From positions 1-33,775 of the forward strand of contig CANQNG010000021.1 in NCBI GenBank assembly GCA_947625155.1: a stretch of 33,775 bases of DNA. The letters are read 5' to 3'. This document shows positions 4,576 through 22,767 of the stretch, piece by piece. The stretch is from an uncultured Clostridia bacterium. GTDB lineage: Bacteria > Bacillota > Clostridia > Oscillospirales > Ruminococcaceae. The number at the start of each line of letters is the position of its first letter. The stretch's first letter is position 1. A program made the position numbers and the translations under genes. Under the pieces are notes generated by a model that saw only the letters and a program-made list of their open reading frames with translations, did no database searches and was not told where the DNA came from.

Positions 4576-5901
4576 TTATCCGATAGAAACGAGGTGTTTC
4601 AGGAGGGCAAGGTCATAGACATCCGTTGCCCCGTCCTCACAAAGTTCCGCCAGTTCCGGCTTGCCCAATTCCGCCTGACCGAGGAGGTATTTTTGCAGCA
4701 GCACCACATCCGCCAAGTTGACCGCACCGTCTCCATTTACATCGCCGGCAAGGGCTTCCGGATCCGGCTCTGTTCCGGGCTGCGGCGTGTCCTCTGCGGT
4801 ATAGACCCGTTCATACATGGTCTCCGCCCAGATACGGCGCATTTCGGCATAGCCGGTGTCGTTCGGGTGTACGCCGTCGCCGCTGAGCATATCCGGGTTT
4901 TCGGCAAAGAAGGCATCAAAGTCCGGACCGGGAATGACTTCCGGGTAGTCCTCATAAATTTTCCGCACCATGTCATTGTAGTCATCCAGATAATTGGCAA
5001 CATCCGGGTTAGTGGAATGCGGAATGGTCGGCAGGACGGGGATCTTCCCGGCTGCCAAGATCTGTTTGATCATGTAGACGGTGTTCTCATAATAGCCCGC
5101 AGCGCCGGTCTGGTTGCCCCATGCATCATTTGTGCCGTAGGCAATGCTCACGAAATGCGCCTTGCAGTCAGAGAGCCAGCGGTCGATGTTTTCCTTGCCG
5201 TCTTTGCTGGTAATGCCGCCGATGCCGCCGTTTTCCTGAATGGGGAAATACGCCTCGTCCAGCGAATGGACATGCGTCGCAAAGCCCGTGCCGTAGCAGT
5301 TGTTCATCCCGCCGAACGTAATGGAATCCCCATAGAACATCCAAGAATCGCTCACGCCCTCCGACACGTCATGCACGTCAAAATTCAGGGTGACATTGCC
5401 GCCCTCTTTGCCGTCTGCCCCGGTGATGGACAGGCGGATCCAGTTATATCCGGCAAAATCTACAATGTGCTGCCGGGAAGAATAGGTGCAGTCCCTGACC
5501 GTTTCCACAACTTCCCAGCCGTCCTCCGGATACGTGCCGCCGGGGGCAGCATTGACCTCTACGGTATAGTCCGAGGGCTGCATATTGCGCATGACATACA
5601 AGCCAAGCACATCGTAGGAGCTGGTGTTGTACCACACGGCATCAATGACCTGCCGATTTTCCTCCGGGACACCGGAAAGATCATAGGCGATGTAGTCGGG
5701 GGCGCTGCCGCTCCAGAACGTGAAATAGTGTTCATCATTGGCAGCCGTGGCAGTGGCAGGATCACTGCCGGAATAGGCAGGGCAGTTCCGGCTGATGACG
5801 GGGTCAGGGGTGACGGCAGCAGAAGCCGTCAGCGCCGGGAAAGCGCCCGCTGCCGGCAATGCCAGCGCAAAGAACAAGGCGATCGTTTTTCGGAAGTGCA
5901 T
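4576..5901 (-). CDS. Secreted SGNH/GDSL esterase with C-terminal dockerin
   Basis: 441 residues with a signal peptide (1-29, AxA-type end). Residues about 30-185 form a beta-rich, probably jelly-roll domain. The SGNH hydrolase domain has block I GDSITFGG (Ser193), a block II Gly in GGIGG, block III GTND (Asn258), and DGVHPND (Asp342, His345), so the catalytic Ser-Asp-His set is intact. This resembles carbohydrate esterases that remove acetyl groups from plant polysaccharides. The dockerin (386-441) has one good calcium-binding repeat (GDVNGDGAVNLADVVLLQKY) and a second that lacks the DxNxD loop but keeps DVYDLALLK. It would attach to a cohesin on a cellulosome scaffold. The substrate is not determinable from sequence alone. 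Confidence 0.92.
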   Translation of the reverse strand: MHFRKTIALFFALALPAAGAFPALTASAAVTPDPVISRNCPAYSGSDPATATAANDEHYFTFWSGSAPDYIAYDLSGVPEENRQVIDAVWYNTSSYDVLGLYVMRNMQPSDYTVEVNAAPGGTYPEDGWEVVETVRDCTYSSRQHIVDFAGYNWIRLSITGADGKEGGNVTLNFDVHDVSEGVSDSWMFYGDSITFGGMNNCYGTGFATHVHSLDEAYFPIQENGGIGGITSKDGKENIDRWLSDCKAHFVSIAYGTNDAWGNQTGAAGYYENTVYMIKQILAAGKIPVLPTIPHSTNPDVANYLDDYNDMVRKIYEDYPEVIPGPDFDAFFAENPDMLSGDGVHPNDTGYAEMRRIWAETMYERVYTAEDTPQPGTEPDPEALAGDVNGDGAVNLADVVLLQKYLLGQAELGKPELAELCEDGATDVYDLALLKHLVSIG

Positions 5902-5939
5902 AAGATCATACCCTTTCTGTAAAATATCTCTGTATTTCT

Positions 5940-5968
5940 ATTATACTGCATTCCGGCGGATTTGTAAA
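5940..5968 (-). promoter_or_regulatory. Sigma-A promoter for the esterase and two-component genes
   Basis: Minus strand TTTACA (5968-5963), 17-bp spacer, TATAAT (5945-5940), with an AGAAAGGG ribosome site before the ATG at 5901. No other promoter is visible before the kinase gene ends. Confidence 0.7.
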
Positions 5969-6022
5969 GAGTTTCAAAAAAATTGAAGTGGATAATTGCA
6001 GTCATTATGTGCATTCAATACG

Positions 6023-6042
6023 CTTCCGCCCAAGGGCGGAAG
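6023..6042. repeat. Strong 9-bp intergenic hairpin
   Basis: CTTCCGCCC and GGGCGGAAG flank AA, so in RNA the inner pairs must open. It lies in the 313-bp gap 5902-6214, which also holds the esterase promoter, a second GC-rich hairpin and one copy of the dispersed element. It may be a distal terminator or stability element for the methyltransferase mRNA on the minus strand. Confidence 0.5.
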
Positions 6043-6068
6043 GGATAGTTCGGAAAAAAGGAAAGAGG

Positions 6069-6096
6069 GGGGCACTTTTTTGCCAAAAGTGTCCCC
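6069..6096 (-). terminator. Probable terminator of the ponA-methyltransferase operon
   Basis: GGGGCACTTTT pairs with AAAAGTGTCCCC (one bulge) around a short loop. On the minus strand it follows the methyltransferase stop by about 120 nt, beyond the dispersed element, and is followed by a pyrimidine/T-rich run. The second element copy has an analogous hairpin at the same relative place. Confidence 0.6.
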
Positions 6097-6099
6097 TGT

Positions 6100-6192
6100 T
6101 TTCAGCTAAGATAAAAGTAGCAGTCAAGCAAGCCGACCTTTGCCGCTGTAAAGCGGCATTGGGAGGCACAACGGAGGCGGCAGCCTGCCGCC
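6100..6192. repeat. Dispersed structured intergenic element, copy 1
   Basis: This is homologous to 29777-29899. Block A (6100-6124; TTTCAGCTAAGATAAAAGTA...) and block B (6128-6174) are shared; block B is 44/47 identical. Block B holds a hairpin GCCGCT-GTAA-AGCGGC (6142-6157). Copy 2 has GCCGCC-GTAA-GGCGGC, a compensatory T-A to C-G change. A second hairpin follows (GGCGGC / GCCGCC, 6176-6192), again with a different sequence but the same position in copy 2. On the minus strand both copies sit between the gene end and a hairpin terminator. The orientation of function is unknown; on plus-strand RNA the loop would be a GNRA tetraloop. Confidence 0.75.
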
Positions 6193-6214
6193 GCTGCTGG
6201 AGAGGGTCGTCTGT

Positions 6215-7324
6215 TTATGTAGCATAGTAACAATACAGCTGACAGGAGATCATGCCGTTGTACAGTTTTCTGCGTTTGTCGGCTTTTCTGCCGAACGCAT
6301 TCTCAAATCCGCTGTCTCCGCAGATGACATACAGCGGCGGGCGGAGCACGTTGCCCATAGTGCGGTAGATCCTGCGGGCGGATTCCTGTTCGAGCATCCG
6401 TTCCCCGTAGGGCGGATCGCAGAATATCACAGCGCCCGGCATATTCCGGAATGCGGTAATATCCTGCTGCTGCACATGGATGTATTTTTCCACGCCGGCT
6501 TTTTTGGCATTTTCCGCTGTCAGGCGAATGGCTTCGGGGTCGCAGTCATAGCCATACCCCTCAAATGCCACATCCCTGTCGATCCTGTCCAGTGCCTCTG
6601 CACGGGCAAGCCGCCATGCCTCCTGCGGCATACAGCCCCACTGTTCGGCGATAAAGCGCCTGTCCAGTCCGGGGGCGATATGACAAGCCCGCCGTGCCGC
6701 CTCGATGAGGAATGTGCCGCTGCCGCAGAACGGGTCGCAGACGAGGGTATCGCTCCGCACCCGCCCCAGATCAAGGATCCCTGCGGCAAGCGTCTCCCGG
6801 ATGGGGGCAAGGTTGGCATTGCGCCGGTAGCCCCGCTTGTGCAGCCCTTCTCCGGTCGTGTCGAGGTAGAGCGTGACCTGATCTTTCAGGATGGTGAACT
6901 GTAACTGATGCAGACTGCCGGTCTCCGGCAGAAAGCCCGTGGTCTTGTAAGCTTTCTGCAAGCGCTTCACGGCAGCTTTTTTGAGGATCTTCTGACAGGC
7001 AGGGATGCTGTGCAGCACGGAATCCACGGAGTGTCCCTTGACCGGGAAAGCGTCCTCCCGCCCGATAAAGCGCTCCAGCGGCGCATGGTACATCCCGTCA
7101 AACAATTCCTCAAACGTCTGTGCCTTGTATGCGGCAAGCACGATCTGCACCCGTTCCGCCACGGAAAGTTCTAAATTCGCATGGGCAAGCGTGTCCCATC
7201 CGCCCGACCAGTTCACTCTGCCGTCCTGCACGGCAATATCCTCACCGCCGATCCTTGTCACCTCAAACCGGAGCACTTTCTCCAGCCCGAAATGACAAGG
7301 GGCAGAAAGCCGTATGCGTTCCAT
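6215..7324 (-). CDS. THUMP-domain RNA (guanine-N2) methyltransferase, RlmL/YpsC type
   Basis: 369 residues. This family transfers a methyl group from S-adenosylmethionine to a guanine N2 in structured RNA (23S rRNA for the E. coli RlmL N-half; B. subtilis YpsC is similar). Residues about 1-60 are the N-terminal ferredoxin-like part and about 60-165 the THUMP RNA-binding domain. The Rossmann methyltransferase follows, with motif I DPFCGSGTFLIEAA (197-210), an acidic ribose-binding loop near GYDCDP, and catalytic motif IV DPPYGERM (303-310). Its ATG shares one base with the stop of the penicillin-binding protein gene (TGATG), so translation is coupled and both should run from 9911-9939. Confidence 0.92.
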   Translation of the reverse strand: MERIRLSAPCHFGLEKVLRFEVTRIGGEDIAVQDGRVNWSGGWDTLAHANLELSVAERVQIVLAAYKAQTFEELFDGMYHAPLERFIGREDAFPVKGHSVDSVLHSIPACQKILKKAAVKRLQKAYKTTGFLPETGSLHQLQFTILKDQVTLYLDTTGEGLHKRGYRRNANLAPIRETLAAGILDLGRVRSDTLVCDPFCGSGTFLIEAARRACHIAPGLDRRFIAEQWGCMPQEAWRLARAEALDRIDRDVAFEGYGYDCDPEAIRLTAENAKKAGVEKYIHVQQQDITAFRNMPGAVIFCDPPYGERMLEQESARRIYRTMGNVLRPPLYVICGDSGFENAFGRKADKRRKLYNGMISCQLYCYYAT

Positions 7325-9834
7325 CAGGGCGTTACCTCCGGTGCAGGCGGTGTTACCGGGTTTGGCGGTTCGACCGGATCCTGCGGTACGACTGGTACAT
7401 CGGGTGTGTCCGGTACATCCGGCGTATCCGGTGTGTCAGGGGTATCATTGCCGCCGGACGATGGCGAAACTGTACTGCTGGTGGTCGGCTTCGGCGGCGT
7501 ATCACCGCCTTCTTCTTCCCCGCCTTCACCGGTCTCATCAGAAGCCCCGGTCGGTTTGGTCGATCTGCAGCCGGTGCATACGGGGGCATTGGTGGATTTC
7601 CAGTAGCCTACCGGACCCTTCGGGCAGCTCTTACCGGCGATCAGTCCGGTGTTGGTACAAATGGGGGCTTCGATGACAGACTCACAGGTCGGGTATTCGG
7701 CTTCGGAATCAATGGAATTGGCATATTCGCCGATGGCATTCTTCCACAGCCTTGCGGAGCTGATGGAGGTATCCAGCTTTTCACGCTGTACATAGCCGAT
7801 CCACACGCCTGAAACAAAGTCCTCCGTCAGTCCCACGAACCAGAGGTCGTCCCAGTTCTGTGTCGTACCGGTCTTGCCGACGACTTCCTTGTTGGAGAGC
7901 TGTGCCGCACCGGCAGTACCTTCCGAGGAAACAACGTTCTTCATAAGGCGATTCATGACGTAGGCAGTTTCGGGATCTACGGCTTCATACGGTTCGCCGT
8001 CGTTCTCGTATACCAGTTCATGGTTGCCCTGTTCCAGCCGGGAAACGATATGTGCCTTGTACATCGTGCCGCCGTTGCCGTAGGGAACATAGCCGTTGAC
8101 GAGATCCTCAAGGGTGACACCGTAGGTCAGCGCACCGACAGACAGCGGCGAAAGTGCCATGTCTGTATTGCCTTTGCCGTCCATTTCGGTCAGCTCCAGC
8201 CCCATTTTCTTGGTGCTGAAATTATAGACCGCTTCCGGTGTCAGGGCATCGACCAGCCGTGCAGAAATGGTATTCAGCGATTTCATCAGACCATAGTAGA
8301 GGTTCAGGTCGTTGCCGGAGTAGTTGGTCGCTGTGGAATTGGAGCTGTAGTTGTGCGGCCAGAGAGAGCCGTCCGGCATTTCCAGACCGTAGTCCTTGAT
8401 CATAGAACCCCAGTGGAACTGATCGCTGTAAATGCCGTAGCCGTACCCGGCAAGGGGCTTGATGGTCGAGCCGGGCTGCCGGGGTTCCATGGTGGCATAG
8501 TTGGTGATGAGGGCATCTTTCTTTTCGCCGAGCGCACCGATGCAGGCGAGGATCTCACCCTGATAATTCATGGCAATGAACGTACACTGCGGGTAGATCA
8601 CACCATCCAGTTCATCAATGTTCCCGTCACCGTTGGTGTCGTTATAGCGTGCGGAATTCTTGGTGCTGATGAGGTTGTTGAGGTCAAGGTATTTCTCCTC
8701 AACATATGCCTGCATGTTCGGGTCAACGGTCGTATAGACCTGATAGCCGCCGTCATTGAATTTTGACAGTGCATCGTCAAAGTCAAGACTATAAGTTTCC
8801 ATGAGGTAGTCCACGACTTCCCGGATAGCGGCATCCACGACCCAGCTTGTGACAGCCTCTTCGGGGTCGTACTCCTCCACTTCCAGCTCCGGGTGGAGCT
8901 GCTTGTACTCGTCCGTGTCCGTAAAGACCAGATGCTCATTCAGGGCAGCCTGATAATCGTCATAGGTCAATGCACCGTGCTGGTACATCTGCCAGAGGAC
9001 GTATTCCTGACGTTCCCGGTTGCGTGTCCTGCCGGACATGACTTTTTCTCCTGTCTCATCGTCGATGTAGTAGGCAAAGGGGTTGATCGTCTCCGGAGAC
9101 TGCGGGATCGCCGCAAGGCAGGCAGATTCCGCAACGGTAAGATCCCCCACGTTCTTGCCGAAATACTTGATGGCAGCCGCTTCGATGCCGTTGGTCGGAC
9201 CGCCAAAGCCGATGTAATTCAGGTATGTTTCCATGATCTCATCCTTGGAGTAATTTTTCTCCAGTGTCATGGCACGGAAGATCTCCCGGATCTTACGGGA
9301 CGGAGATTCTTCATCGTCACCAGTCACGTTCTTGATGAGCTGCTGTGTGATGGTCGAACCGCCACGCTCGGAATCCCAGAAGTGCAGCACCAAGTTGATA
9401 CAGGCGGCAATGGTATTCTTGTAGTCCACGCCGTCATGGGTGTAGAAACGCTCATCCTCCGTGTAGACAAAGGCATCCACAGTATGCTGCGGAATATCCT
9501 CCAGCGATACCGGGATACGCTGTTCCGGCTGCTGTACCTCGTAGAGGGTGACGAGTTTGCCCTCCGTGTCATAGCCGTAGACATCGGTGTTATAGTGCAT
9601 CTCCATTTCCTCAAGGGTGACGCTCGAAGCTTCATCCATGAAGTCCATGACGTAAACAGCCGCCGCCGTTCCGACGATCGTTCCTGTAATGATACAGATC
9701 AGGAAAATGGAAAGCAGCGTGGAAAAGAGAATGGACAAGAGCTTTCGGGCAATACGCCATCCCCGTGAGGGGCGCTTCTTCTGCGTTCCTCGTTCGCTGG
9801 GACGGGAGCGCCGGGTATTTCTGTGTTCTTCCAT
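7324..9834 (-). CDS. ponA: Class A penicillin-binding protein (PBP1A type)
   Basis: 836 residues. This bifunctional enzyme polymerises and cross-links peptidoglycan at the outer membrane face. It has a basic cytoplasmic start, a TM segment at about 33-62, and a GT51 glycosyltransferase with Glu126 in EDERFYTHDGVD and RGGSTITQQLIKN. The transpeptidase has Ser456/Lys459 in PGSTIKP, Ser-Leu-Asn at 519-521 and Lys654-Thr-Gly. The tail is a long Pro/Thr/Asp repeat. The ATG at 9834 is preferred over an upstream in-frame start because TAGGAGGT lies 9 nt before it. Odd: residues 399-411 (DTNGDGNIDELDG) match an EF-hand calcium loop inside the linker before the transpeptidase core. The symbol is by family; mrcA or pbp1A would be equivalent. 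Confidence 0.93.
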   Translation of the reverse strand: MEEHRNTRRSRPSERGTQKKRPSRGWRIARKLLSILFSTLLSIFLICIITGTIVGTAAAVYVMDFMDEASSVTLEEMEMHYNTDVYGYDTEGKLVTLYEVQQPEQRIPVSLEDIPQHTVDAFVYTEDERFYTHDGVDYKNTIAACINLVLHFWDSERGGSTITQQLIKNVTGDDEESPSRKIREIFRAMTLEKNYSKDEIMETYLNYIGFGGPTNGIEAAAIKYFGKNVGDLTVAESACLAAIPQSPETINPFAYYIDDETGEKVMSGRTRNRERQEYVLWQMYQHGALTYDDYQAALNEHLVFTDTDEYKQLHPELEVEEYDPEEAVTSWVVDAAIREVVDYLMETYSLDFDDALSKFNDGGYQVYTTVDPNMQAYVEEKYLDLNNLISTKNSARYNDTNGDGNIDELDGVIYPQCTFIAMNYQGEILACIGALGEKKDALITNYATMEPRQPGSTIKPLAGYGYGIYSDQFHWGSMIKDYGLEMPDGSLWPHNYSSNSTATNYSGNDLNLYYGLMKSLNTISARLVDALTPEAVYNFSTKKMGLELTEMDGKGNTDMALSPLSVGALTYGVTLEDLVNGYVPYGNGGTMYKAHIVSRLEQGNHELVYENDGEPYEAVDPETAYVMNRLMKNVVSSEGTAGAAQLSNKEVVGKTGTTQNWDDLWFVGLTEDFVSGVWIGYVQREKLDTSISSARLWKNAIGEYANSIDSEAEYPTCESVIEAPICTNTGLIAGKSCPKGPVGYWKSTNAPVCTGCRSTKPTGASDETGEGGEEEGGDTPPKPTTSSTVSPSSGGNDTPDTPDTPDVPDTPDVPVVPQDPVEPPNPVTPPAPEVTP

Positions 9835-12945: not shown

Positions 12946-12974
12946 TTGACTTTTCAGAATATTGGTGCTATGAT
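12946..12974 (+). promoter_or_regulatory. Sigma-A promoter for the transglutaminase-dockerin gene
   Basis: TTGACT (12946-12951), 17-bp spacer, TATGAT (12969-12974). An unusually A/T-rich tract lies just upstream (about 12860-12940, with several A runs) and could act as an UP element or curved DNA. The start codon is at 13036. Confidence 0.65.
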
Positions 12975-13035
12975 AATAATAACGGAACACAAAGTTCTGC
13001 AAAAAAAATATTTTCAGAAAAAGGGGGTTGCTTGT

Positions 13036-15009
13036 ATGCTGCATAGTAATCGTTTAAGGAAGGTGATCGCTGCCGCCGCCGCTGGTGCAGTCGGGCTGAT
13101 GCAGCTTGCCATGTTTCCTGTTGCTGCGGATGAGGAATTGGTCATTCCGGATTTCTCTGAGCTGGGTGCGATCGGCACTTTGACAGAGGAACAGACACAG
13201 ATGGTAGCTGCAAGCATTTACAAGGGTCTGGCGGAACATGCTGAGACTGCCGAATTCGACACCAGTTCGGACGATGCGCTCATCCGTCCGGATGCGGACG
13301 CATTCCAGTCGATCATGAATGTCTATTCCACGATCACAGCCGGGTGGGATGTCGGCGTGCTTTCCGTGCGCAATTCCACCAATATGCTCCTGACCAAGAG
13401 CGCCTCACGGGGCAGCTTCGTCCGTGGCATGATGCTGTACTATCTGGTCGAGCCGGAAGAATTCGATACTGCCTATGCGGACACCATTGACAAGCTCGAT
13501 GCCATTTCCGCAGGGGTGCAGGATAACTGGTCTCCGGCAGAAAAAGCGCTCTATCTCCATGAATATATTGCCATTCATTACAATTATGACAACGGTGCCG
13601 CTTCGTATGAGACCAAAGAGGAAGAATATCTCTGCCATACAGCCTACGGTATGCTCAGCCGGGGCAAGGGCGTGTGCGATGCCTATGCGTGGCTGTACAA
13701 TTTGCTGCTCCGCCGGGAGGGCATCGATTCCCTGATGGTGACGAGCCTGAAGAAAGCACACGCATGGAACGTGGTGCAGATCGGGGATGCGTGGTATCAT
13801 GTGGACATCACTTGGGATGACTCCTACCAAAATCATGCGGGGCTTGTGGTACACAAGAATTTCCTGAAAGACCGCAGTGCCATGTCGGATACCGGGCATA
13901 ATTCGGACGACTGGACACTCAGCACCGGCAAGCCGGAATCTACCTTGCAGGTATCTTCGCTTTACAACAATGCTTTCTGGACAGAGAGCAGCGCAGCCGT
14001 GCAGCCCTATCAGGGCAAATGGCTGGCAGTTGTGCCCGGTGAGTATGACAAGACGACAGGTTGGTTCAATGTATACACATTTGACCCTGCTACGGGGCTT
14101 TCGGAAAGTCAGTCCCTGTTCTCCCTGAATGAGCGCTGGACAGTGGTCGGCATGCCGAACAAGTACTATTCGTCTACGTTCATCGTGCCTTCTGCTTATG
14201 AGGGAACTGTCTACTACTCCACACCGACCACGGTGTTTGCACTGCGCAACGGTATCATCATCTGGCTGTTCAACCTCACCGAGGAGCAAAAGCAGATGGG
14301 CTGCATTTACGGCATGTATGTCAAGGACGGTATGCTGTACTATGACATTTCTGCCACTTCCACGGGTGCTGTTACCGAATTTGCCGTACCGCTTGCTGAG
14401 TACGAAGCACAGATCGAGGCAGTCGCAGGACCTGTCAGCACGGGGATCATTCCTGTCCAGACAACGGCTGCAACGACGACTACGCTCCCGGAAACCACGA
14501 CGACAACGGCTGCAACGACAACAACAAATGCCCCTGCTGCAACGACTGCTGCACCGGCAGAGACAGAGACCGCACAGGTGATCACACTTCCGGCAACAGA
14601 GCCTCCGGTCGATGCACGTGCGATTCCGGATGAATCATTCCCGGAGAGTTCTTCTACAGAGACGACTACCACTGCGGTTGCTGTTGTGACGACTACCACA
14701 GCTACGACCACAACAACAACTACTACGACTACCACGACCACGGCAATAGAAGCGCCTGCTACAGAAGCAGAGACGATACCGCCGGCTATCCCGGGTGATC
14801 TCAATGGGGATCAGGGCGTGACACTGATCGATCTGGTGACGCTGAACCGGTATCTTACCGGGACGATCAAGCTCTCCGGGGAAGAAGCTGCAAAGTGCGA
14901 TCTGGTCAAGGATGGTGTGATCGATGTATTTGATCTTGCCGTACTCAAGTACATGCTGATCCTCAGTCAGCAAGCGGCTGAGATCGTTGCCCCGCAGGCA
15001 GTTAGCTGA
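13036..15009 (+). CDS. Secreted transglutaminase-like protein with dockerin
   Basis: 657 residues from the ATG at 13036 (AGGGGGT just upstream); a longer in-frame start at 12946 overlaps the promoter. It has a signal peptide (about 1-31), a transglutaminase-like core with the Cys-His-Asp triad (Cys214 in GKGVCDAYAWLYN, His242 in AHAWN, Asp257 in WYHVDITWDD), a beta-rich domain of about 200 residues, a Thr-rich linker (about 478-590) and a two-repeat dockerin (GDLNGDQGVTLIDLVTLNRY and VKDGVIDVFDLAVLKYM). It should attach to a cellulosome scaffold outside the cell. Bacterial members of this fold are usually cysteine proteases or cross-linkers; the reaction here is unknown. Confidence 0.9.
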   Translation: MLHSNRLRKVIAAAAAGAVGLMQLAMFPVAADEELVIPDFSELGAIGTLTEEQTQMVAASIYKGLAEHAETAEFDTSSDDALIRPDADAFQSIMNVYSTITAGWDVGVLSVRNSTNMLLTKSASRGSFVRGMMLYYLVEPEEFDTAYADTIDKLDAISAGVQDNWSPAEKALYLHEYIAIHYNYDNGAASYETKEEEYLCHTAYGMLSRGKGVCDAYAWLYNLLLRREGIDSLMVTSLKKAHAWNVVQIGDAWYHVDITWDDSYQNHAGLVVHKNFLKDRSAMSDTGHNSDDWTLSTGKPESTLQVSSLYNNAFWTESSAAVQPYQGKWLAVVPGEYDKTTGWFNVYTFDPATGLSESQSLFSLNERWTVVGMPNKYYSSTFIVPSAYEGTVYYSTPTTVFALRNGIIIWLFNLTEEQKQMGCIYGMYVKDGMLYYDISATSTGAVTEFAVPLAEYEAQIEAVAGPVSTGIIPVQTTAATTTTLPETTTTTAATTTTNAPAATTAAPAETETAQVITLPATEPPVDARAIPDESFPESSSTETTTTAVAVVTTTTATTTTTTTTTTTTTAIEAPATEAETIPPAIPGDLNGDQGVTLIDLVTLNRYLTGTIKLSGEEAAKCDLVKDGVIDVFDLAVLKYMLILSQQAAEIVAPQAVS

Positions 15010-15013
15010 ATCC

Positions 15014-15043
15014 AAAGAGCCTGAGAAATATCTCAGGCTCTTT
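15014..15043. terminator. Bidirectional intrinsic terminator
   Basis: A 13-bp stem (AAAGAGCCTGAGA / TCTCAGGCTCTTT) with an AATA loop and a T-run on the plus strand. It ends both the transglutaminase-dockerin gene and the minus-strand peptide operon, whose last stop codon (15033-15035) lies inside the stem. Confidence 0.9.
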
Positions 15044-16139
15044 TTTGTTTGTTCTGTCGGTGCAGGGCTTTCAGTTCCATGAGGACATACTTCCGGCGGA
15101 CGGTCATGCCCCGGAGCAGCCGGAGCAGCCATGCCGCAGGGAGCAGCAGTCTATGACGGTAGCAAAACGGGTACTGCGCCTTGTAAAAGGCAAGCCCCGG
15201 AAACAGGCGCTTCCAAAAGTATTTCCACCCCGTGCCGAGCGTTTCGGTGCGGTGTTGGACGGCTTGTTCCATTGTGCCATACGTGCCGGAATGCAGATAG
15301 AAGCGCAGCAGTGCCTGCTGTTCTTCCGTCAGGGGCGCTTCGGGGTCGGTAAAGACCTGACAGGCAAGCGTTCCCATTTTTTCCGCAAAGCTGTGAATGC
15401 CAAGCGTTTTCAGCTCCCGTTCCAGATATGCCCGGTCAATGTCAGGGTGTACCCGCAGGAACACATAGCAGTCGAGCAGTGTCCGCAGCCCGGTTCCGGC
15501 ATGGCTGGCGTGTTTATACGCATGCGCCAGAAAATAAAGGAAAAGATCCTCGTCCGTAAAATGATAGCTGTAAGCTTTGTCCGCATCCTGCACGAGCCGT
15601 TCTTTCACGTCTGCATAGTAGCTGTGGAATTCGCTGTCCTGCCCGAACAGCATCGTGTGCAGTTCAAAATTGTAGATCGGTTCTTTCAGGTAGGTGTCAT
15701 GGTGGGATTTTCCGATACTTTCCGGGGTGTAGCCGGAGGTTTGCATAAAGGCAAGCACGTCCTGCTGGAATGCGGCATCGTAGAGGATGTCATTATCTGC
15801 CATCTGCCGCAGACCGACACCGGGGTACAGTTCCTTGAGGATGACCCCTTTGAGGGGCATATACCAGATACCATGTTCTTCCAGAAAGCTGCAGATCCGG
15901 CTGCGTTCCGCATCGAGGAGAAGATCCTTGCGGATCGCCTTTGCCTTATCCTGCCGGAAATCATCTGGTACCTCTGCCCCGGAAGCCTCCAGCGCTGTGC
16001 AGACCAGTGCCGACAGACTGTGAGACCGGCTCATCGCCAGCAGTGCCTGCATATCCGTCCCTGCAAGCTTTGCCTTGTCAGGGGCTTTATTCTGTATGCC
16101 GCATGCTGTCAGATACAGCAGGGCTTCCTGTGTCTGCAT
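15033..16139 (-). CDS. Nucleotidyltransferase family protein (NTP_transf_5 type)
   Basis: 368 residues from the ATG at 16139 (GGAG just upstream). The start lies 53 bp inside the ABC gene, so the two overlap in different frames. The family signature LKGVILKELYPGVGLRQMADNDILY is present at about 100-125, with the acidic DND expected to bind metal in the nucleotidyltransferase fold. The remainder is helical. Such proteins are recurrent accessory genes in peptide-modification clusters, including some lasso clusters, where a nucleotidyl group transfer to the peptide is suspected. Here it is the last gene of the seven-gene operon. Substrate and reaction are inference. Confidence 0.88.
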   Translation of the reverse strand: MQTQEALLYLTACGIQNKAPDKAKLAGTDMQALLAMSRSHSLSALVCTALEASGAEVPDDFRQDKAKAIRKDLLLDAERSRICSFLEEHGIWYMPLKGVILKELYPGVGLRQMADNDILYDAAFQQDVLAFMQTSGYTPESIGKSHHDTYLKEPIYNFELHTMLFGQDSEFHSYYADVKERLVQDADKAYSYHFTDEDLFLYFLAHAYKHASHAGTGLRTLLDCYVFLRVHPDIDRAYLERELKTLGIHSFAEKMGTLACQVFTDPEAPLTEEQQALLRFYLHSGTYGTMEQAVQHRTETLGTGWKYFWKRLFPGLAFYKAQYPFCYRHRLLLPAAWLLRLLRGMTVRRKYVLMELKALHRQNKQKRA

Positions 16140-17805
16140 AATTGATCTCCACTCCATTTTCGTGCATGTGAATGATCGTATCACAAATGCCCAGCGCCGC
16201 CGGGCGGTGTGTGACAAGGATGACCGTCTTATCCGTGAGCTGCCGCAAATTGCACAGCAGGCGCTGTTCCGTTTCGCTGTCAAGGGCGCTCGTCGATTCG
16301 TCAAGCAGCAGAACCGGGTTGTCCGAATAGATCGCCCTTGCAATGGCAAGCCGCTGCAGCTGCCCTTCCGAAAGCCCCTGCCCCCGTTCGCCGAGCTGTG
16401 TTTCCGTGCCAAGCGTTTCTGCAAAATCGGCACAGGCAATGTGCAGCGCCCTTGCAAGACGTTCCGCATCCGGTGCTTTCTCCGAGAAGCTCACGGCATC
16501 CCGTATCGAGCCACTCAGGAGCTGACTGCCCTGCGGCACATAGGCGAACAGCCTGTGCCACTGCGCCGTCAGGGGCAGGCGTGTGCCATCCCTGCCGATG
16601 AGAAAACGTTCACCGCTTTGCAGCGGATACAGGCACATGAGCAGCTTCAGGAGTGTCGATTTACCGCATCCGGAATGTCCTGTGATCGCCGTGAATGAGC
16701 CTTTTTTCAGGGTGACGGAGATGTTTTCAAGTACCCGTTCTCCCTCTCTGCCCCGGTAGGCAAAGCCTGCCCCTGCAAAGCCAAGCCCGGCAAATTTGTT
16801 TTCATAGAATGCCCGGATCTCTTCATCAGTTTTTGCTCCCTCCGGACGATCCTCCGCAAAAGCTTCCGCTTCGGATAGCCGTTCGGCACTTGCTGTCATG
16901 GCATAGAATTTCGGGAGAAAGCCCGTAATGCCCGCCAGCGGCATCTGGAGCTGTCCGATGAGCTGTAACACTGCCATCAGCGTACCGTAGGAATATTTTC
17001 CCTGTAGAATGCCATACCCGCAGTACCCCAGCCCCAGCAGGTACATACCGTTCATGGCTGCGGAGAAACCGGAATTGCACAGGTTAGAAAACCGGACACG
17101 AGCCATCCGGGCAGACTTGTGTACATCCATGCGTTCCTCTGCGCCAGCAAGTGTCCGCTGTTCTGCGGAGAAAGAACGGACGATCAGCAGGCTTTCAAGG
17201 TGTTCCTGCAAAAACATACGCACTTTGCCGTCTGCTGTCTGCATTTTTTTGTGCAGAGCTTTTAGAGTTTTCCGGAACAGGCAGGTCAGCAGCAGCAATA
17301 CCGCCCCGCCCGGCAGAAGCAGATACACAAACCCCGGTTCGAGGACGAGCATCATCGAAAGTGCTGCCAGCAGTTTTACCGCCATGCCTGCTGCCCCCGG
17401 CAGGATGTCCACAGCCCCCGCCGCACAGACCGCCGTGTCCGAGGTCAGGCGGTTGAGCCATTCGCCGGAGTGGACAGCCGTCACCGAGGCATAGTCCTTG
17501 TGCAGCAGCACCCCGAACAGCCGGCGCTTGCAGGCGTTTTCCAGATCTGCACGGGTGCGTTCCTCCCAGTGCCGGATCACGGTCCGCAAAAGGATCTGCC
17601 CCGCTGCGATGCCTGCCGCCCCCAAAAGCCCGTACCCGAAGCCTTTGGGGTCTCCGGCAGCCGCCGCATCGATGACCTCCCGCAGTGCCAGCGCAAAGGC
17701 AACACCGCTCACACCGAGTACCATTTGCAGCACCGTCAGCCCTGCAATGGCAGCTTTCTGCTTTCCCGTGACCTGCCAGAGCCACCGGACAGCCGTTTGT
17801 CTCAC
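16087..17805 (-). CDS. ABC exporter, fused membrane and ATPase domains
   Basis: 572 residues if started at GTG 17805, which overlaps the peptidase stop as GTGA; a GTG 12 nt upstream and an ATG at 17874 are alternatives. Six membrane helices span about 15-300. The ATPase half has Walker A GHSGCGKST, Q-loop YVPQGSQLL, signature LSEGQLQRL (a Gly-to-Glu variant of LSGGQ), Walker B VLLLDEST and the H-loop VTHRP. It lacks a C39 peptidase domain, so any leader removal must come from another enzyme; the S26-type peptidase encoded just upstream is the obvious candidate. It probably exports the 47-residue peptide as a homodimer. Confidence 0.92.
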   Translation of the reverse strand: MRQTAVRWLWQVTGKQKAAIAGLTVLQMVLGVSGVAFALALREVIDAAAAGDPKGFGYGLLGAAGIAAGQILLRTVIRHWEERTRADLENACKRRLFGVLLHKDYASVTAVHSGEWLNRLTSDTAVCAAGAVDILPGAAGMAVKLLAALSMMLVLEPGFVYLLLPGGAVLLLLTCLFRKTLKALHKKMQTADGKVRMFLQEHLESLLIVRSFSAEQRTLAGAEERMDVHKSARMARVRFSNLCNSGFSAAMNGMYLLGLGYCGYGILQGKYSYGTLMAVLQLIGQLQMPLAGITGFLPKFYAMTASAERLSEAEAFAEDRPEGAKTDEEIRAFYENKFAGLGFAGAGFAYRGREGERVLENISVTLKKGSFTAITGHSGCGKSTLLKLLMCLYPLQSGERFLIGRDGTRLPLTAQWHRLFAYVPQGSQLLSGSIRDAVSFSEKAPDAERLARALHIACADFAETLGTETQLGERGQGLSEGQLQRLAIARAIYSDNPVLLLDESTSALDSETEQRLLCNLRQLTDKTVILVTHRPAALGICDTIIHMHENGVEINYADTGSPAVSDSMRHTE

Positions 17806-18233
17806 CGTTTCCACCGCCCTTTCCGGAAATACTTTACCCGCAGCACACAAGCCCGAACCCAGAAAAGATCGCACCAGATATGGGCATACAGCCGCAGCCG
17901 CCAGTCTTTCACGGAAATGGTCTTTCCGTCCCGCACCAAGCCCGTCAGCACCCCGATGATATGTTCGTCCGTGATGCCGGACTCCCGCTGCCAGCGGTTG
18001 TCACCGCAGAGCATATAGTCCGTCTTCCGCACTTTCAGGACACGATGCAGCACATACTGCCCGGAATCCCGCTTGTAGAGGGGAATATCCAGCCGATGCA
18101 GCCTGCCCTGCGGCGGTTCGAGGATCAGCAGGTCACGTTTTTCCCGAATGAGGGGCATCATGCTGTCGCCGACATTCGTGTAGACCAGTTTCCCCGTCCG
18201 TGCCAGTTCCGCTTCAAAGCTGGACTCAGCCAT
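17802..18233 (-). CDS. S24/S26-type signal peptidase
   Basis: 143 residues from the ATG at 18233, which overlaps the PqqD stop by 8 nt; a longer frame upstream is a shadow of the PqqD gene. Ser24 in GDSMMP is the catalytic-serine box. His63 in QYVLHRVLKV sits where SipW/S26B peptidases use a His, and a conserved CGDNR box follows. The C-terminus (WRLRLYAHIWCDLFWVRACV) is aromatic and basic and could lie on the membrane. It likely cleaves the leader of the cluster peptide, since it is embedded between the PqqD and exporter genes. Confidence 0.87.
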   Translation of the reverse strand: MAESSFEAELARTGKLVYTNVGDSMMPLIREKRDLLILEPPQGRLHRLDIPLYKRDSGQYVLHRVLKVRKTDYMLCGDNRWQRESGITDEHIIGVLTGLVRDGKTISVKDWRLRLYAHIWCDLFWVRACVLRVKYFRKGRWKR

Positions 18234-18483
18234 GAATTGCATCAATGCTGCGCAGGATCTCCACGATACGGTGGACATCTGCGGCGGCGGTAGCTTCGGG
18301 GACATCGTATTTTTCCAGCAGGCGGGCAGTGATCTCCGCTTCGGTCGTTTCGGTTTTCAGGCAGTTGACAATGAAAGCAGCCGTCGGATTGCTGCGTACA
18401 ATGCCGCTGAAAGCAGTTCCGGCGGCGACTAAGATCTGTTCGCCGTCCGCTTCGTAGGTCAGAAATTCAGGGTTCAGTTGCAT
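18226..18483 (-). CDS. PqqD-like peptide-binding protein
   Basis: 85 residues. PqqD-fold proteins (RiPP recognition elements) bind the leader of a precursor peptide and present it to modifying enzymes. Here the N-terminal beta strands (LNPEFLTYEADGEQILV) lead into NPTAAFIVNCLKTETTEAEITARLLEKYDV, the typical helical part (NxTAxxIxxLLxxxxTxxEI). The ATG at 18483 overlaps the kinase stop by 10 nt. It stands alone rather than fused to an enzyme, so it may serve both the kinase and the nucleotidyltransferase. Confidence 0.9.
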   Translation of the reverse strand: MQLNPEFLTYEADGEQILVAAGTAFSGIVRSNPTAAFIVNCLKTETTEAEITARLLEKYDVPEATAAADVHRIVEILRSIDAIHG

Positions 18484-19220
18484 GGGTTTTCTCCTTTCAT
18501 GCCCGCATAGGCGATCTTTGCCGCCGACAGTTTCCGGTCACATTGCAGGCGGTACAGCTTTACTCCGGCAGAAAGCTGGGATACCAGTGCAAGTGTGCGT
18601 TGCAGCAGCGCCGGATCAGAAGGGCGGTAGCTTTGTTGTAACAGCAGGGGAAACGCTTCGTGCCGGTCAAGGGGGGTAATACGGTTTTCCCTGCCCCGTT
18701 CCAGAACGCAGACCGCTTTCAGCGGAACAGAGGTGTTCGTGCTGCGGTGATGTTTCCCGTCCCACGGCGTACCGTAAACGATCACGCCGCCATCCGTGCA
18801 GCGCAGAAGCGGCTTGTCATCATTGACCATGAAAGCCCGCTCCCCGAAATACGTCATCCACAGGCTGGTGTGGGTGGATTTGCCTGTGCCGCTTTTCGCC
18901 GTGAACAGATAGCCCTCTCCGTCCACTGCCACGGCAGACCCGTGAAACAGCAGAATATCCGAGGGTATGAGCTTTTCAGCCAGTTTCCGGTAGACTGCCA
19001 ACGTCTCCAGATACCCGTCCGGAAATGTCCGCACAGGCTTGCCCTCCTGCTTGTCCGTCAGGGCAGACCGTTCCCGTTCGGCAGCAATATCAGCAGGGGA
19101 GATCTCTATGGAAATTTCCGGCTGTGCCTCTGTCCGGTAATTCCGGCAGAGTGCATGAACATCCGGGAACAGAGACCGGATGCCGATGTTGGCTTCGGCT
19201 ATGCGATAGATCCCATACAT
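18474..19220 (-). CDS. HPr-kinase-like protein (peptide-tailoring kinase)
   Basis: 248 residues from the ATG at 19220 with AAAGGAG upstream. It has HprK-fold motifs: FHGSAV (His93), the P-loop AKSGTGKSTHTSLW (108-121), MVNDDKPLLR (Asp134/Asp135) and GTPWDGKHHRSTNTSVPLKAV. True HPr kinase has an extra N-terminal domain and acts on the PTS protein HPr; this shorter form is the one found in peptide clusters. In the paeninodin-type lasso system a homologue phosphorylates a Ser of the precursor. Here the likely substrate is the 47-residue peptide encoded immediately upstream, rich in Thr and Ser. Substrate assignment is inference from context. Confidence 0.9.
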   Translation of the reverse strand: MYGIYRIAEANIGIRSLFPDVHALCRNYRTEAQPEISIEISPADIAAERERSALTDKQEGKPVRTFPDGYLETLAVYRKLAEKLIPSDILLFHGSAVAVDGEGYLFTAKSGTGKSTHTSLWMTYFGERAFMVNDDKPLLRCTDGGVIVYGTPWDGKHHRSTNTSVPLKAVCVLERGRENRITPLDRHEAFPLLLQQSYRPSDPALLQRTLALVSQLSAGVKLYRLQCDRKLSAAKIAYAGMKGENPCN

Positions 19221-19242
19221 AGCAGCTCCTTTCCGGAAATAG

Positions 19243-19275
19243 GCTGCCCCCTGCACCACAGGCGCAAGGGGCAGC
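19243..19275 (-). promoter_or_regulatory. Intercistronic hairpin after the peptide gene
   Basis: A perfect 8-bp stem (GCTGCCCC / GGGGCAGC) with a 17-nt loop lies in the 62-bp gap between the peptide stop and the kinase start, and no T-run follows on the minus strand. This suits partial attenuation or 3'-end protection, letting the peptide be made in excess over its enzymes. The role is inference. Confidence 0.5.
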
Positions 19276-19282
19276 ACGCCGT

Positions 19283-19426
19283 TTATTGGAATACGTCCGT
19301 ATAGGCGACCGTTTCCGGTACACCGTCTGCGCCGCCATCGGTCAGCTCACCACTGGTGGTGATAACATCCTCCGTGTCAAATGTGCAAACATCCATGACC
19401 GGCGTGATATAGGGTTCTTTTGTCAT
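19283..19426 (-). CDS. 47-residue acidic peptide, probable precursor of an exported modified peptide
   Basis: Starts at ATG 19426 with AGGAGG at 19439-19434; the ATGA overlaps the stop of the large transglutaminase-like gene by 4 nt. The product begins MTKEPYITPVMDVCTFDTED, continues VITTSGELTDGG and ends with AYTDVFQ. It is strongly acidic and has one Cys (14). Y6-x-x-P9 is the motif that recognition-element proteins bind in lasso-type leaders. A conserved-looking EDVITTSG follows, then Gly-Gly at 31-32, giving a possible 15-residue core. Peptides of the form YxxPxM...F(D/E)xEDVITTSG recur in gut Firmicutes to my recollection. It is followed directly by a kinase, PqqD, peptidase, exporter and nucleotidyltransferase. 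No cyclase is present, so a lasso knot is unlikely. Confidence 0.85.
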   Translation of the reverse strand: MTKEPYITPVMDVCTFDTEDVITTSGELTDGGADGVPETVAYTDVFQ

Positions 19427-22400
19427 ACGATCTCCTCCTTCTGTGCCTCAGGCAGCTTGTATGTTTTTTTCGGCAGTTCGGCTGTTTCTTTTTTCAGTTC
19501 TGTCAGCCTTGGGATGGCTGCGGCAGTTCTGGCAGCATCTGCGGGAATGCCCGTCACGCCGAGCGCCAGCAGATACTTACCGCCAAATTCTTCCGCTGTG
19601 TAGGTCTTGTCACCGATGATCACAGACTGATAGACCGTATTGGTTTCCCACGCATAGGTCTTGCCATCTGCTGCGATCGTCAGCCCTGCACGGCTGTAAT
19701 TTAGTGAATCGACTGCATAGAGCAGATACATATCTGTCAGACCATCTTCCGGCGGGAGCAGAACTTTGGATGCCGTCTTACCGGGCGTACCGGGAATGGT
19801 CTCCACAGAAGGCGTGGTGGTCGTGGTCGGCGCAGTTGTCGTTGTCGTCGCTGCGGTAGTCGTCGTCGTTGCTGCGGTGGTAGTTGTTGTGGTGGTCGTT
19901 GTGGTCACTGTGGTGGTCGTCGCAGCTGTAGAAGACGTTGTTACAACGGCTGTGGTTTCGGGAAGTGTAGTGGCAGCGGCGGTCGTGGCAGGTGCTTCTG
20001 TGGTGGTCTCCGCAGGTTCAGTGGCAGGTGGTGTGGTCTCACCGGGCTTGTCGGGCGCTGCTACCAGATTGCCCGCGGGGGCAGCTTCTGCCTCGGCATC
20101 GACCGGGATAGGCGTTTCACCCTTGGCAGCTTCTGCTTCTGCGACAGCAGCAGGAGCAAACTTCACATCCACGATACTGCTGTTTCCGTCAATATCCGCA
20201 TAGCTCAGCGTCAGCGGCATACCGGATGCATCCGTGATCTCTGTGAGCTTGCCGCCAACGGAAACGGAATCAATGACATAGCCCTCGTCCGGCTGGAGGA
20301 ACACGGTCACGCTCTCTCCCTCGGCAAGGGTGACGATACCGTCACAGGAGACGGAACCGCCCTTGGAGGCAGATGCTACGACAGACTTGGCAGCACTTTC
20401 CGTGCCGTCATCCTCAACTGCTGCGACCATGTACGGGCTGAAGCTCATGCAGGTCACGACCAGACCGTATTCTGTGATGACACAGGGGATCTCCTCTACC
20501 CCGGTGCAGTTGCCTGCTGCATCCTTGATGAAGTGGTAGACTTTGAACGTCACCCCGGCATCTTCCGGACCGTAGCCGTCCGGGAAGCCGAGCATCACAC
20601 GCACGCCGTCACCGGTGCTTGCCACCTGTGCCTTGCAGATGGACAGGCTGATCTCAAAGCTCTTGCTTTCGAGAACGGTATCCTCTGTCTGGGTATCGAC
20701 CAGTTCTGCCATCTGATCCTGTTCCTTGTGGGACGGAGCACTTGCCACGAGCACCATGCGGTCACGGAGCTTGTCACTGACGGTAGAACCATCGGTGGTT
20801 TTCCAGTCGTTCATGGAAATATCGGAATTGTCAAGCAGTCTCGGCTGTGCAAAGACGTTCCACTGGATGCCCTGCGAACGGTAAGCGCAGACATAGCTCT
20901 GGAACTTGGCTTCATAGGTGATGTCCATGGGAGCTTTGCCGCTGCGGGCACTCTTGAGTCCCTTGATAGAGAACGTGTACGCTGCACGGTCGTCAGCCCA
21001 CATCTTGCTTGGCGTGAAGTCGAACGAAATGGTCGAAACGCCGTCCCACTGTGCCTTTGTCATGGTGCTGTTGACCTGACCGGACGGGGAGCTGCACGTC
21101 ATAACGACCTCAAACTCCTCCCCTTCGATGGGAACGAGGACTTCATCAAAGGTGGCACTCACGTGCTGTGTACCCCGTTCGATGACGAGGTAGCCGCTGT
21201 TCCGGGGCGTGAGGTTTCTTGCATAGGGAGCGGGCATATAGTAGCCATTTTCGTTGTGGATCACATTGCTCTGTTCGAGCATGACCGGTTCTTCATCAAA
21301 GACAAGATCCGGGATGCCGTATTCATTCATTGTCGGCGGAATATCCGTGACGGCAAACTGCACATTCTGCGCAGAGGCAAGTGTCAGTGTCAATTCTGTG
21401 TCCGTATCTTCTATGCCGGGGTAGTATTGCGGTTCGATATAGCACCAGCCGCTGTCAACAGTTTCGTCATTTTCTTCATAGTAATTGATGAAGCGGACGA
21501 TGATGTACTTGCCCTGTTCGGCAGCCTTGGCGTAGCCCATGCCGTTGTAGCTGACGATGAAGTCGCCTGCCGGAACACCTTCCATTTCGGAATCTGCCTT
21601 ATAATTTACCACAAGCCCGCCGGAATCGGTGAGGGTCTCCACGCCGAGCGCATTGATCTCCGGATCCGGGTAGGTGAAGGGATAATTGGCTTCCGAGAGG
21701 ATATTGCTGGGGGTGTGGTGACGGTTCAGGATGTCCTCACCGACGAGGAGATATTCCTCGTTCTCACCGCCGTCCACGCCGCCTTCCGAGGGATTTTGGG
21801 TGATCGGGTCGTCCATGGTGGGGTCAACGCCGTACCAGCCGCCATTGATCTGCACAAGTGTCCACATATGCAGCTCTGGCTGGTTTTCCGTCACATTGTA
21901 GACACCGCTGACGAGGACGCATGGGATGCCCAGCTCGTCCAGCACTGCCTTGAAGGCACGGGAGTAGCCCTCACAGACACCCTCTTCCCGGAGCAGAGGA
22001 CCATAAGCATTCCGGATAAAGCCGATATTGGCAGGATCGCAGGCATCCTCTAACCGATAGGAGGTGTGGTGGGTGATATAGTCATGCACATAGCGCACCT
22101 GTTCGGCTGCGGCATCCTTGCCCTCCTCCACGGGAGCAGCTTTGGCAGCAGCGGCGATCTCTGCAACGGCTTCGTGATACTGTCCGAGAGCGCTTTCCAC
22201 ATCCGCTGCACTGGTGAAGCCTTCTGCATAGTAATTATCCCGCCTGAATGCGCCTAAGTACACATGATAGCCGTCCTCACCGGTCGTCACACGGATGGAG
22301 AGTGCGGAGAGATCGACATAGAACGTGTCCATGTGATCCATGTAAAAGGCATCCCTTGCCGCACCGAATGCAGTCAGCACACCGGGACCGCCGTCAGCGT

Positions 22401-22686
22401 ATCCCGCTGCTTCTTCCTGCGTGAGCAGACCATTGGCGGTCAGGTCGAAACTTTCCGTGCCAGTCTTGAGCATGCCCGTGGTGTACATGGTGTTGATAGC
22501 ATCGTAAAAGACCTTGGACTCGGCAGAGAGCTGCTGGCAGAAATAACCTTCCGTGTCATGCACGGCTGCGGCATCGGCAGCAAAGGTCTGTACGACATGG
22601 ACTGTCTGCGTGGCAGATCCGGCTGTGAGCTGTGTGGCTGCAAGCGAGACGGCGAGCAGAGAGGCAAGTGCTTTTCTGAAATTCAT
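19423..22686 (-). CDS. Large secreted transglutaminase-like protein with Thr-rich linker
   Basis: 1087 residues from the ATG at 22686 (GGAAGG 9 nt upstream). It has a signal peptide (about 1-38). The transglutaminase core is near 195-295, with Cys238 in REEGVCEGYSRAF, His273 in ELHMWTLV and Asp288 in WYGVDPTMDDP. About 600 residues of probable beta-sandwich modules follow, then a Thr/Ala linker (about 915-985), then about 100 residues with no membrane anchor, dockerin or sorting signal. The last residues (KKTYKLPEAQKEEIV) contain a YxxP. It opens the seven-gene operon and overlaps the peptide gene by 4 nt, so it may act on the exported peptide outside the cell; that is inference. The fold resembles the transglutaminase in 13036-15009. 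Confidence 0.88.
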   Translation of the reverse strand: MNFRKALASLLAVSLAATQLTAGSATQTVHVVQTFAADAAAVHDTEGYFCQQLSAESKVFYDAINTMYTTGMLKTGTESFDLTANGLLTQEEAAGYADGGPGVLTAFGAARDAFYMDHMDTFYVDLSALSIRVTTGEDGYHVYLGAFRRDNYYAEGFTSAADVESALGQYHEAVAEIAAAAKAAPVEEGKDAAAEQVRYVHDYITHHTSYRLEDACDPANIGFIRNAYGPLLREEGVCEGYSRAFKAVLDELGIPCVLVSGVYNVTENQPELHMWTLVQINGGWYGVDPTMDDPITQNPSEGGVDGGENEEYLLVGEDILNRHHTPSNILSEANYPFTYPDPEINALGVETLTDSGGLVVNYKADSEMEGVPAGDFIVSYNGMGYAKAAEQGKYIIVRFINYYEENDETVDSGWCYIEPQYYPGIEDTDTELTLTLASAQNVQFAVTDIPPTMNEYGIPDLVFDEEPVMLEQSNVIHNENGYYMPAPYARNLTPRNSGYLVIERGTQHVSATFDEVLVPIEGEEFEVVMTCSSPSGQVNSTMTKAQWDGVSTISFDFTPSKMWADDRAAYTFSIKGLKSARSGKAPMDITYEAKFQSYVCAYRSQGIQWNVFAQPRLLDNSDISMNDWKTTDGSTVSDKLRDRMVLVASAPSHKEQDQMAELVDTQTEDTVLESKSFEISLSICKAQVASTGDGVRVMLGFPDGYGPEDAGVTFKVYHFIKDAAGNCTGVEEIPCVITEYGLVVTCMSFSPYMVAAVEDDGTESAAKSVVASASKGGSVSCDGIVTLAEGESVTVFLQPDEGYVIDSVSVGGKLTEITDASGMPLTLSYADIDGNSSIVDVKFAPAAVAEAEAAKGETPIPVDAEAEAAPAGNLVAAPDKPGETTPPATEPAETTTEAPATTAAATTLPETTAVVTTSSTAATTTTVTTTTTTTTTTAATTTTTAATTTTTAPTTTTTPSVETIPGTPGKTASKVLLPPEDGLTDMYLLYAVDSLNYSRAGLTIAADGKTYAWETNTVYQSVIIGDKTYTAEEFGGKYLLALGVTGIPADAARTAAAIPRLTELKKETAELPKKTYKLPEAQKEEIV

Positions 22687-22738
22687 AAATGTCATCCTTC
22701 CTTTCCTGTGTCTACCCTTGCTTGGGTGTTGTACCTTA

Positions 22739-22767
22739 ATTATACAGTAACTGTCCAAAAAAGTCAA
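22739..22767 (-). promoter_or_regulatory. Sigma-A promoter of the seven-gene peptide operon
   Basis: Minus strand TTGACT (22767-22762), 17-bp spacer, TATAAT (22744-22739), about 50 bp upstream of the ATG at 22686. No other promoter is evident inside the operon. Confidence 0.75.

Follow-up and report, generated by a model that had tools for sequence, protein, structure and literature searches.

A stretch of 33,775 nucleotides from an uncultured Clostridia bacterium of the Ruminococcaceae (contig CANQNG010000021.1, assembly GCA_947625155.1), hereafter the window, carries a seven-gene operon for a secreted transglutaminase-like protein, a 47-residue peptide, an HPr-kinase-like (HprK-like) kinase, a PqqD-like protein, an S26-type peptidase, an ABC exporter and a nucleotidyltransferase. 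We consider it moderately probable that the operon belongs to a system for ribosomally synthesized and post-translationally modified peptides (RiPPs) that is free of a cyclase, is processed by the S26 peptidase and has its precursors tied to secreted proteins; its chemistry is predicted. At the level of sequence, the precursor family, its leader and tail structure, its link to the kinase, the PqqD-like protein and the S26 peptidase, and its position behind genes of secreted proteins are established. All seven open reading frames (ORFs) were present on the minus strand in ORF and domain checks, and the gene overlaps claimed in a preliminary description were recovered as well. In operon order these are 4, 10, 8, 4 and 53 nt, the second 4-nt overlap applying only if the ABC gene starts at a GTG codon at 17805; a 62-nt gap between the peptide and kinase genes is the sole junction without overlap. 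The transglutaminase-like gene and the peptide gene, which overlap by 4 nt, are translationally coupled.

The peptide belongs to a family with the leader YxxPxM-E-V-xx-F-xxE-D-V-I-x-x-S followed by a variable tail, an architecture seen in 75 distinct peptides. Two of these without the motif (locus L058, and L117, whose start is cut short) were excluded from parsing. Among the 73 parsed peptides the Ser was present in 70, the Ile at −3 from it in 68/73 and the Tyr at −19 in 66/72; alignment of 47 peptides gave an invariant Asp20, with Tyr6, Ile22 and Ser25 at 90% or more. The motif patterns fix D/C in this type (type I) and Y/P in a second type (type II, described below) by construction, so that those counts are not independent. 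The tails measured 6–95 aa with a median of 14, one peptide (L188) being misparsed, and all 73 were net negative. The preliminary description had called the peptide acidic, which applies to the parsed tails and not to those found in distant genomes, G260 and G261 among them. The 95-aa tail was found in a family member of Kandleria vitulina (L129, 6465-6836). No NCBIfam model matched the family and Pfam yielded only two chance matches; the paeninodin-family precursor model NF033524 matched 0/47 type I peptides at E 0.1 and 1/10 type II peptides at E 0.17, below its cut-off. The family is uncatalogued. It combines a conserved leader and a variable core with neighbouring genes for modifying enzymes, as is general for RiPPs. 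The leader resembles the lasso-type YxxPxL leader that accompanies B1/PqqD proteins, position −12 being more often Met than Leu, and the PqqD-like protein matched PF05402 above the cut-off.

Co-occurrence was investigated in 391 genomes of the class and in 197 genomes of the window's family. In the class survey the kinase was detected in 109 genomes, the S26 peptidase in 103 and both in 101 (p 4e-81, a value that, like the others here, overstates independence because of kinship between genomes). The peptide occurred in 48 class genomes from 19 families, 47 of them with the kinase and 44 with the S26 peptidase; in the family survey 31 genomes had the kinase and 18 the peptide, 17 of the latter being kinase-bearing. 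A conserved short peptide recurring with the cassette, on which the preliminary description depended, is borne out by the aligned peptides and by this pairing with the kinase. A kinase scan of named genomes returned at least 545 stretches encoding a relative. The best 80 of these loci contained PqqD in 68, S26 in 65, ABC in 56, the nucleotidyltransferase in 47 and the peptide in 40, and most are recorded as gut or rumen Ruminococcus, Oscillospiraceae, Lachnospiraceae and other Clostridia. Stretches around the S26 gene were also taken from 12 of the 103 genomes that have it, all in other families and mostly with strong matches; PqqD was found in 12/12, the kinase in 11/12, the peptide in 7/12 and the nucleotidyltransferase in 6/12. 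Several genomes had many peptide matches: 19 in G459, two of which are 15-residue pieces at contig ends, 15 each in G260 and G261, 11 in G320 and 10 in G295. The cassette recurs more than by chance, and the kinase, PqqD and S26 are its constant parts, while the nucleotidyltransferase and the exporter are optional. A class defined by kinase plus nucleotidyltransferase alone, as had been proposed, did not hold up, since 40 well-flanked loci contained the nucleotidyltransferase in only 24 and ABC in 28, against 35 for PqqD and 31 for S26.

Most peptide genes follow a large ORF at a distance of −4 to about +50 nt, with a median gap of 17 nt. The complete upstream ORFs looked secreted in 59/72 cases, compared with 151/569 other ORFs of the same loci (p 7e-20), as judged by a crude, home-made rule that allows ATG, GTG and TTG starts and takes its controls from the same loci; not counted were 22 of the 98 peptides, which had no suitable upstream ORF of at least 200 aa, and four whose ORFs ran off the locus. 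The partners comprise transglutaminase-like proteins, a GH5 cellulase (L108, in genome G177), BspA-type leucine-rich repeat (LRR) proteins, InlB-repeat proteins and unknown proteins, and the peptides often lie far from the cassette, behind many different secreted proteins. The transglutaminase-like protein was therefore rejected as a fixed enzyme of the pathway and is one of many secreted partners. Two C-terminal domains, CTD-I and CTD-II, recur in the secreted partners (L035, L037, L099, L100, L107 and others): 24 of 77 partner C-termini were CTD-I, 14 were CTD-II and 39 were neither. Pfam at E 0.001 gave no match for the CTD-I proteins of L100 and L107. CTD-I was discarded as a defining partner domain: in 18/20 further CTD-I stretches (including L210, which ends at a contig edge) there was no peptide behind the domain, so it does not account for the pairing.

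Modification of the tail was hinted at most strongly by an association between Cys residues and radical SAM enzymes. One radical SAM family, delimited by phmmer E below 1e-30 to the L152 protein, lies within 5 kb of a peptide in nine loci, where Cys was present in 11/11 tails as opposed to 3/64 elsewhere (p 7e-11); among the three exceptions, L035 is a parsing slip and L101 shares its genome with the radical SAM locus L046. As Cys tails track one radical SAM family, the tail appears to behave as a modifiable core. These nine loci pair a radical SAM maturase with a Cys core in the manner of ranthi- and sactipeptides. No radical SAM enzyme was found among the 26 window ORFs scanned; the absence noted in the preliminary description holds for these ORFs, and other loci do have such enzymes. 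Phosphorylation, which it had also put forward, cannot generally take place in the acidic tail, since 15 of the 73 parsed tails have no Ser, Thr or Tyr. Presence of the nucleotidyltransferase was rejected as a predictor of these residues in the tails (29/36 with it and 12/15 without, p=1, L188 again misparsed), and its link to the sequence ITTS was weak (27/36 against 6/15, p 0.026) and was lost after allowing for six tests.

The enzyme assignments were based on domain matches, conserved residues and fold. The Transglut_core, PqqD, ABC and NTP_transf_5 matches in Pfam were above the cut-offs. The kinase has the P-loop and the conserved His and Asp of HPr-kinase-like enzymes, H93 and D135 being invariant among its relatives and the P-loop SGTGKST nearly so. 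In the S26 family, S24, H63 and D78 were present in 39/39 rows and are presumably the catalytic residues of an S26B peptidase; PF00717 was matched by 7 of these 39 rows, at E up to 0.01. The nucleotidyltransferase has an invariant DxD (D115/D117 in 36 rows), and its AlphaFold2 model (pLDDT 94.5) retrieved MenT1, ANT(2'') and LnuA-like folds, which together with the domain match places it in the nucleotidyltransferase fold. FKRP-type matches were weak (E 0.09), and FKRP was not among the 50 matches listed in a second search. A sequence search of solved structures with the kinase, nucleotidyltransferase, PqqD and S26 proteins gave only a weak TfuB1 match for PqqD (E 0.76). The exporter had been described as lacking a C39 domain, and the domain scans agreed.

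The type II system has a longer kinase (about 300 aa); of 20 stretches read that encode such a kinase (L258-L277), 15 have the peptides near cassette genes. Its peptide motif is MK-x-YVKP-x-h-D/E-VVEL-x-V-x-E-x-I/M-A, and the leader YVKP...VVEL..E.[IM]A is one that we take to be similar to paeninodin leaders. In lasso numbering, both types share Tyr at −17, Pro at −14 (Y and P being fixed by the search), an acidic residue at −3 and Ile/Met at −1; type I has in addition Val/Ile at −2 and Ser at +3.

In the proposed pathway, the PqqD-like protein would bind the YxxP-M/L-E-V-xx-F leader, which is the role of B1 proteins in lasso systems. The kinase may phosphorylate the precursor, with a chance that we put just short of even, most likely at the near-invariant Ser of D-V-I-T-T-S, whose position at +3 with Val/Ile at −2 matches Ser3 of BsfA. 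According to the part of that report available, BsfA has this type I arrangement, BsfK phosphorylates its Ser3, and BsfB1 aids both phosphorylation and leader removal (PMC10368454). Where present, the nucleotidyltransferase might add a nucleotide or sugar-phosphate to that phosphate, a doubtful step suggested by PsmN, which in the accessible part of its report adds hexoses to the phosphoserine of pseudomycoidin (PMC9266682). The S26B peptidase would replace the lasso B2 protein and cut the leader near the D-V-I-T-T-S motif, and the ABC protein would export the tail. Outside the cell, the modified tail may work with the co-encoded secreted protein, at somewhat less than an even chance. Phosphorylation by the kinase, nucleotidyl or sugar-phosphate transfer and this joint action are the least secure steps.

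The conserved Ser may instead be the P1 residue of S26B cleavage, a tenable alternative to a phosphate acceptor that we nevertheless rate below an even chance. S26 enzymes favour small residues at −1, and small residues stand at the boundary in variants: VYA precedes a Cys-rich core in two peptides, and the first core position of type II is Ala in 20/25. Moreover, type II has no conserved residue at this position (S in 8/25) although a kinase is present, which counts against a phosphate acceptor and suggests that the Ser of type I may be a cleavage-site residue. Against cleavage at the Ser, position −3 is not always small, and the precedent of BsfA Ser3 (PMC10368454, as far as that source was available) favours an acceptor.

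A lasso cyclase, stated in the preliminary description to be absent from this operon, was not found. Neither an asparagine-synthetase-like cyclase nor the B2 family PF13471 was found among the 26 window ORFs scanned, the transglutaminase-like protein being PF01841 with a Sec signal. A local Asn-synthase profile, built from four PF00733 sequences and therefore liable to miss distant cyclases, gave one significant match in 147 cassette or peptide loci (some overlapping). This match, in L126, is a truncated C-terminal half next to a serine recombinase that lies beside the cassette (5726-7739), and is read as an AsnB remnant; a sub-threshold match in L229 turned out to be GMP synthase. In the 31 kinase-bearing family genomes, PF00733 matches were on contigs other than that of the kinase, except on two large contigs, of G113 and G117, where the nearest lies more than 140 kb away. 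G105 (97% complete) has no PF00733 match despite having the peptide, kinase, PqqD, S26 and nucleotidyltransferase, and neither have 8 of the 48 genomes, of completeness not given, behind 50 of the best 80 named loci. These results support a system in which a lasso cyclase is not needed, and a lasso peptide was rejected because cyclase and B2 were not found. That the product is a lasso peptide with its cyclase encoded elsewhere in the genome is most improbable. The YxxP leader, PqqD and kinase are as in paeninodin-type clusters, and PF00733 matches do occur in the genome of the window itself, on contigs C14, C19, C26 and C31. Also in its favour, plasmid pNP243 of Butyrivibrio fibrisolvens (185.3-200.3 kb; L256/L278) carries a kinase-peptide-PqqD-S24/S26 cluster with no listed cyclase; within a few kb of it lies a lasso cluster comprising B2, an asparagine synthase-related protein, PqqD and nucleotidyltransferases. 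The genomes without PF00733, the single truncated piece and the lack of PF13471 in the window speak against it, as do several tails of just 6–12 aa.

Other explanations differ in what the peptide does. It could be a free-standing acidic RiPP, its core phosphorylated and/or nucleotidylated and the transglutaminase-like protein in the pathway only here; the adjacent kinase, nucleotidyltransferase, PqqD, S26 and ABC genes and the net negative charge of all parsed tails agree with this. It is unlikely, however, given the 15 tails without Ser, Thr or Tyr, the 16/40 well-flanked loci in which no nucleotidyltransferase was found, and the occurrence of peptides behind a variety of secreted proteins, in many cases at a distance from the cassette. 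A linear exported signal reporting production of each secreted protein, with enzymes for processing and export and only minor modification, would fit the ABC and S26 genes and the tails, which in the stretches read are alike within G260 or within G261 and different between the two. Yet the kinase is the most constant partner of the peptide (47/48), and the 22 neighbour clusters listed, which cover ORFs no more than 9 kb away from the kinase in 80 loci, included neither a receptor nor a histidine kinase, so that we hold a signal to be decidedly unlikely. Tight coupling to the secreted-protein genes, together with the 12/40 well-flanked loci in which no ABC gene was found, would also be compatible with a peptide that is not a RiPP but an intracellular adaptor that connects the kinase/PqqD/S26 machinery with the secreted protein or with its export. 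This is highly unlikely, as Cys tails that track a radical SAM family are expected if the tail itself is modified. It is rather unlikely, finally, that the system serves maturation of surface proteins and is no natural-product pathway; each secreted-protein gene would then have a modified peptide gene of its own, one cassette would serve all peptides, and the exported, phosphate-bearing peptide would bind or be linked to its partner outside the cell, acting as anchor, cap or crosslink.

Besides the kinship of the genomes, the crude signal rule and the CTD-I stretches without a peptide, several observations weigh against a cyclase-free, S26-processed RiPP system tied to secreted proteins. The kinase scores below the cut-offs (Hpr_kinase_C E 0.027, 14.5 against 33.3 bits; TIGR04249 24.4 against 125 bits), and the window's S26 protein has no Pfam match and falls below the cut-off of TIGR02228. 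Four of the 48 peptide-bearing class genomes are without a detected S26; one of them, G502, has four peptide matches and no kinase match either at the thresholds used, and G177 in the family survey has peptides and no kinase match. The 22 peptides without an upstream ORF of at least 200 aa belong here too, as do the 13/72 complete upstream ORFs that fail the signal rule. Additional loci have radical SAM genes from other families, which did not enter the count; one of these genes, in L128, is 3.7 kb away from peptides that have no Cys. The sugar ascribed to PsmN may come from a host enzyme, according to the part of that report available (PMC9266682).

The features of the operon are listed in Table 1. 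The preliminary description had placed one promoter ahead of the genes. A box is indeed present there, and the region contained 3 promoter-like boxes as compared with 3.3 in shuffles; this number being no higher than in shuffles, the candidate is supported by its position alone. Of the 18 other window ORFs scanned, not every one of which is a gene, none matched a RiPP enzyme; they encode, among others, a dockerin-bearing GDSL lipase, a penicillin-binding protein, an amidase, an adhesin-like protein and an [FeFe] hydrogenase. Type I dockerins were found on the GDSL lipase (4576-5901, minus strand) and on a transglutaminase-like protein (12946-15009, plus strand), which suggests a cellulosome-type host.

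Table 1. Operon features and their positions in the window.
Feature	Position	Strand	Evidence and details
Candidate sigma-70 promoter TTGACT-17-TATAAT	22739..22767	-	11/12 matches
Transglutaminase-like Sec-secreted protein with Thr-rich linker	19423..22695	-	PF01841; signal MTFMNFRKALASLLAVSLAATQLTAGSA; Cys-His-Asp visible in sequence; ATG start 22695, alternative TTG-started ORF from 22767
Precursor peptide, 47 aa	19283..19426	-	Leader MTKEPYITPVMDVCTFDTEDVI, conserved TTS, tail GELTDGGADGVPETVAYTDVFQ
HPr-kinase-like P-loop kinase, 248 aa	18474..19220	-	Domain search, residue conservation
PqqD-like RiPP recognition element, 85 aa	18226..18483	-	PF05402 E 3.8e-15; best NCBIfam match lasso_PqqD_Strm, below cut-off
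S26B-type (Ser-His-Asp) peptidase, 143 aa	17802..18233	-	TIGR02228 E 0.002, residue conservation
ABC exporter, permease and ATPase fused	16087..17874	-	ABC Pfam match above cut-off; no C39 domain found; start 17874 or GTG 17805
NTP_transf_5 nucleotidyltransferase-fold enzyme, 368 aa	15033..16139	-	Pfam match above cut-off; DxD; fold

The kinase and the S26 peptidase occur together in about a quarter of the sampled species of the class (101/391), yet the peptide family is unmatched in NCBIfam. The system would show a lasso-type leader and kinase machine working without a cyclase, and would connect the chemistry of RiPPs with adhesins and enzymes that bacteria of the gut and rumen secrete. A literature search, which returned for the most part reviews on lasso peptides and a survey of them in the rumen and whose coverage excluded most subscription papers and preprints, found no description of this system. 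The HPr-rel-A (TIGR04352/TIGR04353) and SynChlorMet (ScmC) cassettes likewise combine an HprK-related kinase with a PqqD-like protein, but the scores obtained here are far below their cut-offs. The radical SAM sub-branch, with its Cys-bearing tails and such an enzyme, resembles the sacti- and ranthipeptides (TIGR04463, Clo7bot, PapB-like maturases); it differs in that scores are below the cut-offs and no radical SAM gene was found in the window or in most loci. Rumen Butyrivibrio lasso clusters contain HPr kinase, PqqD and nucleotidyltransferase genes along with cyclase and B genes, according to the available part of their survey (PMC7533575), whereas the S26 cluster on pNP243 is distinct from the lasso cluster that lies near it. 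The paeninodin-type phosphorylated lasso peptides (PadeA/K, ThcoK, BsfA/K, PsmK/PsmN) share the YxxPxL-like leader, the separate PqqD-like B1 protein and the HprK-like kinase, and their clusters also sometimes include a nucleotidyltransferase and an ABC exporter. In contrast to those clusters, no cyclase or B2 was found here, an S26B peptidase is present instead, and several precursors are scattered behind genes of secreted proteins.

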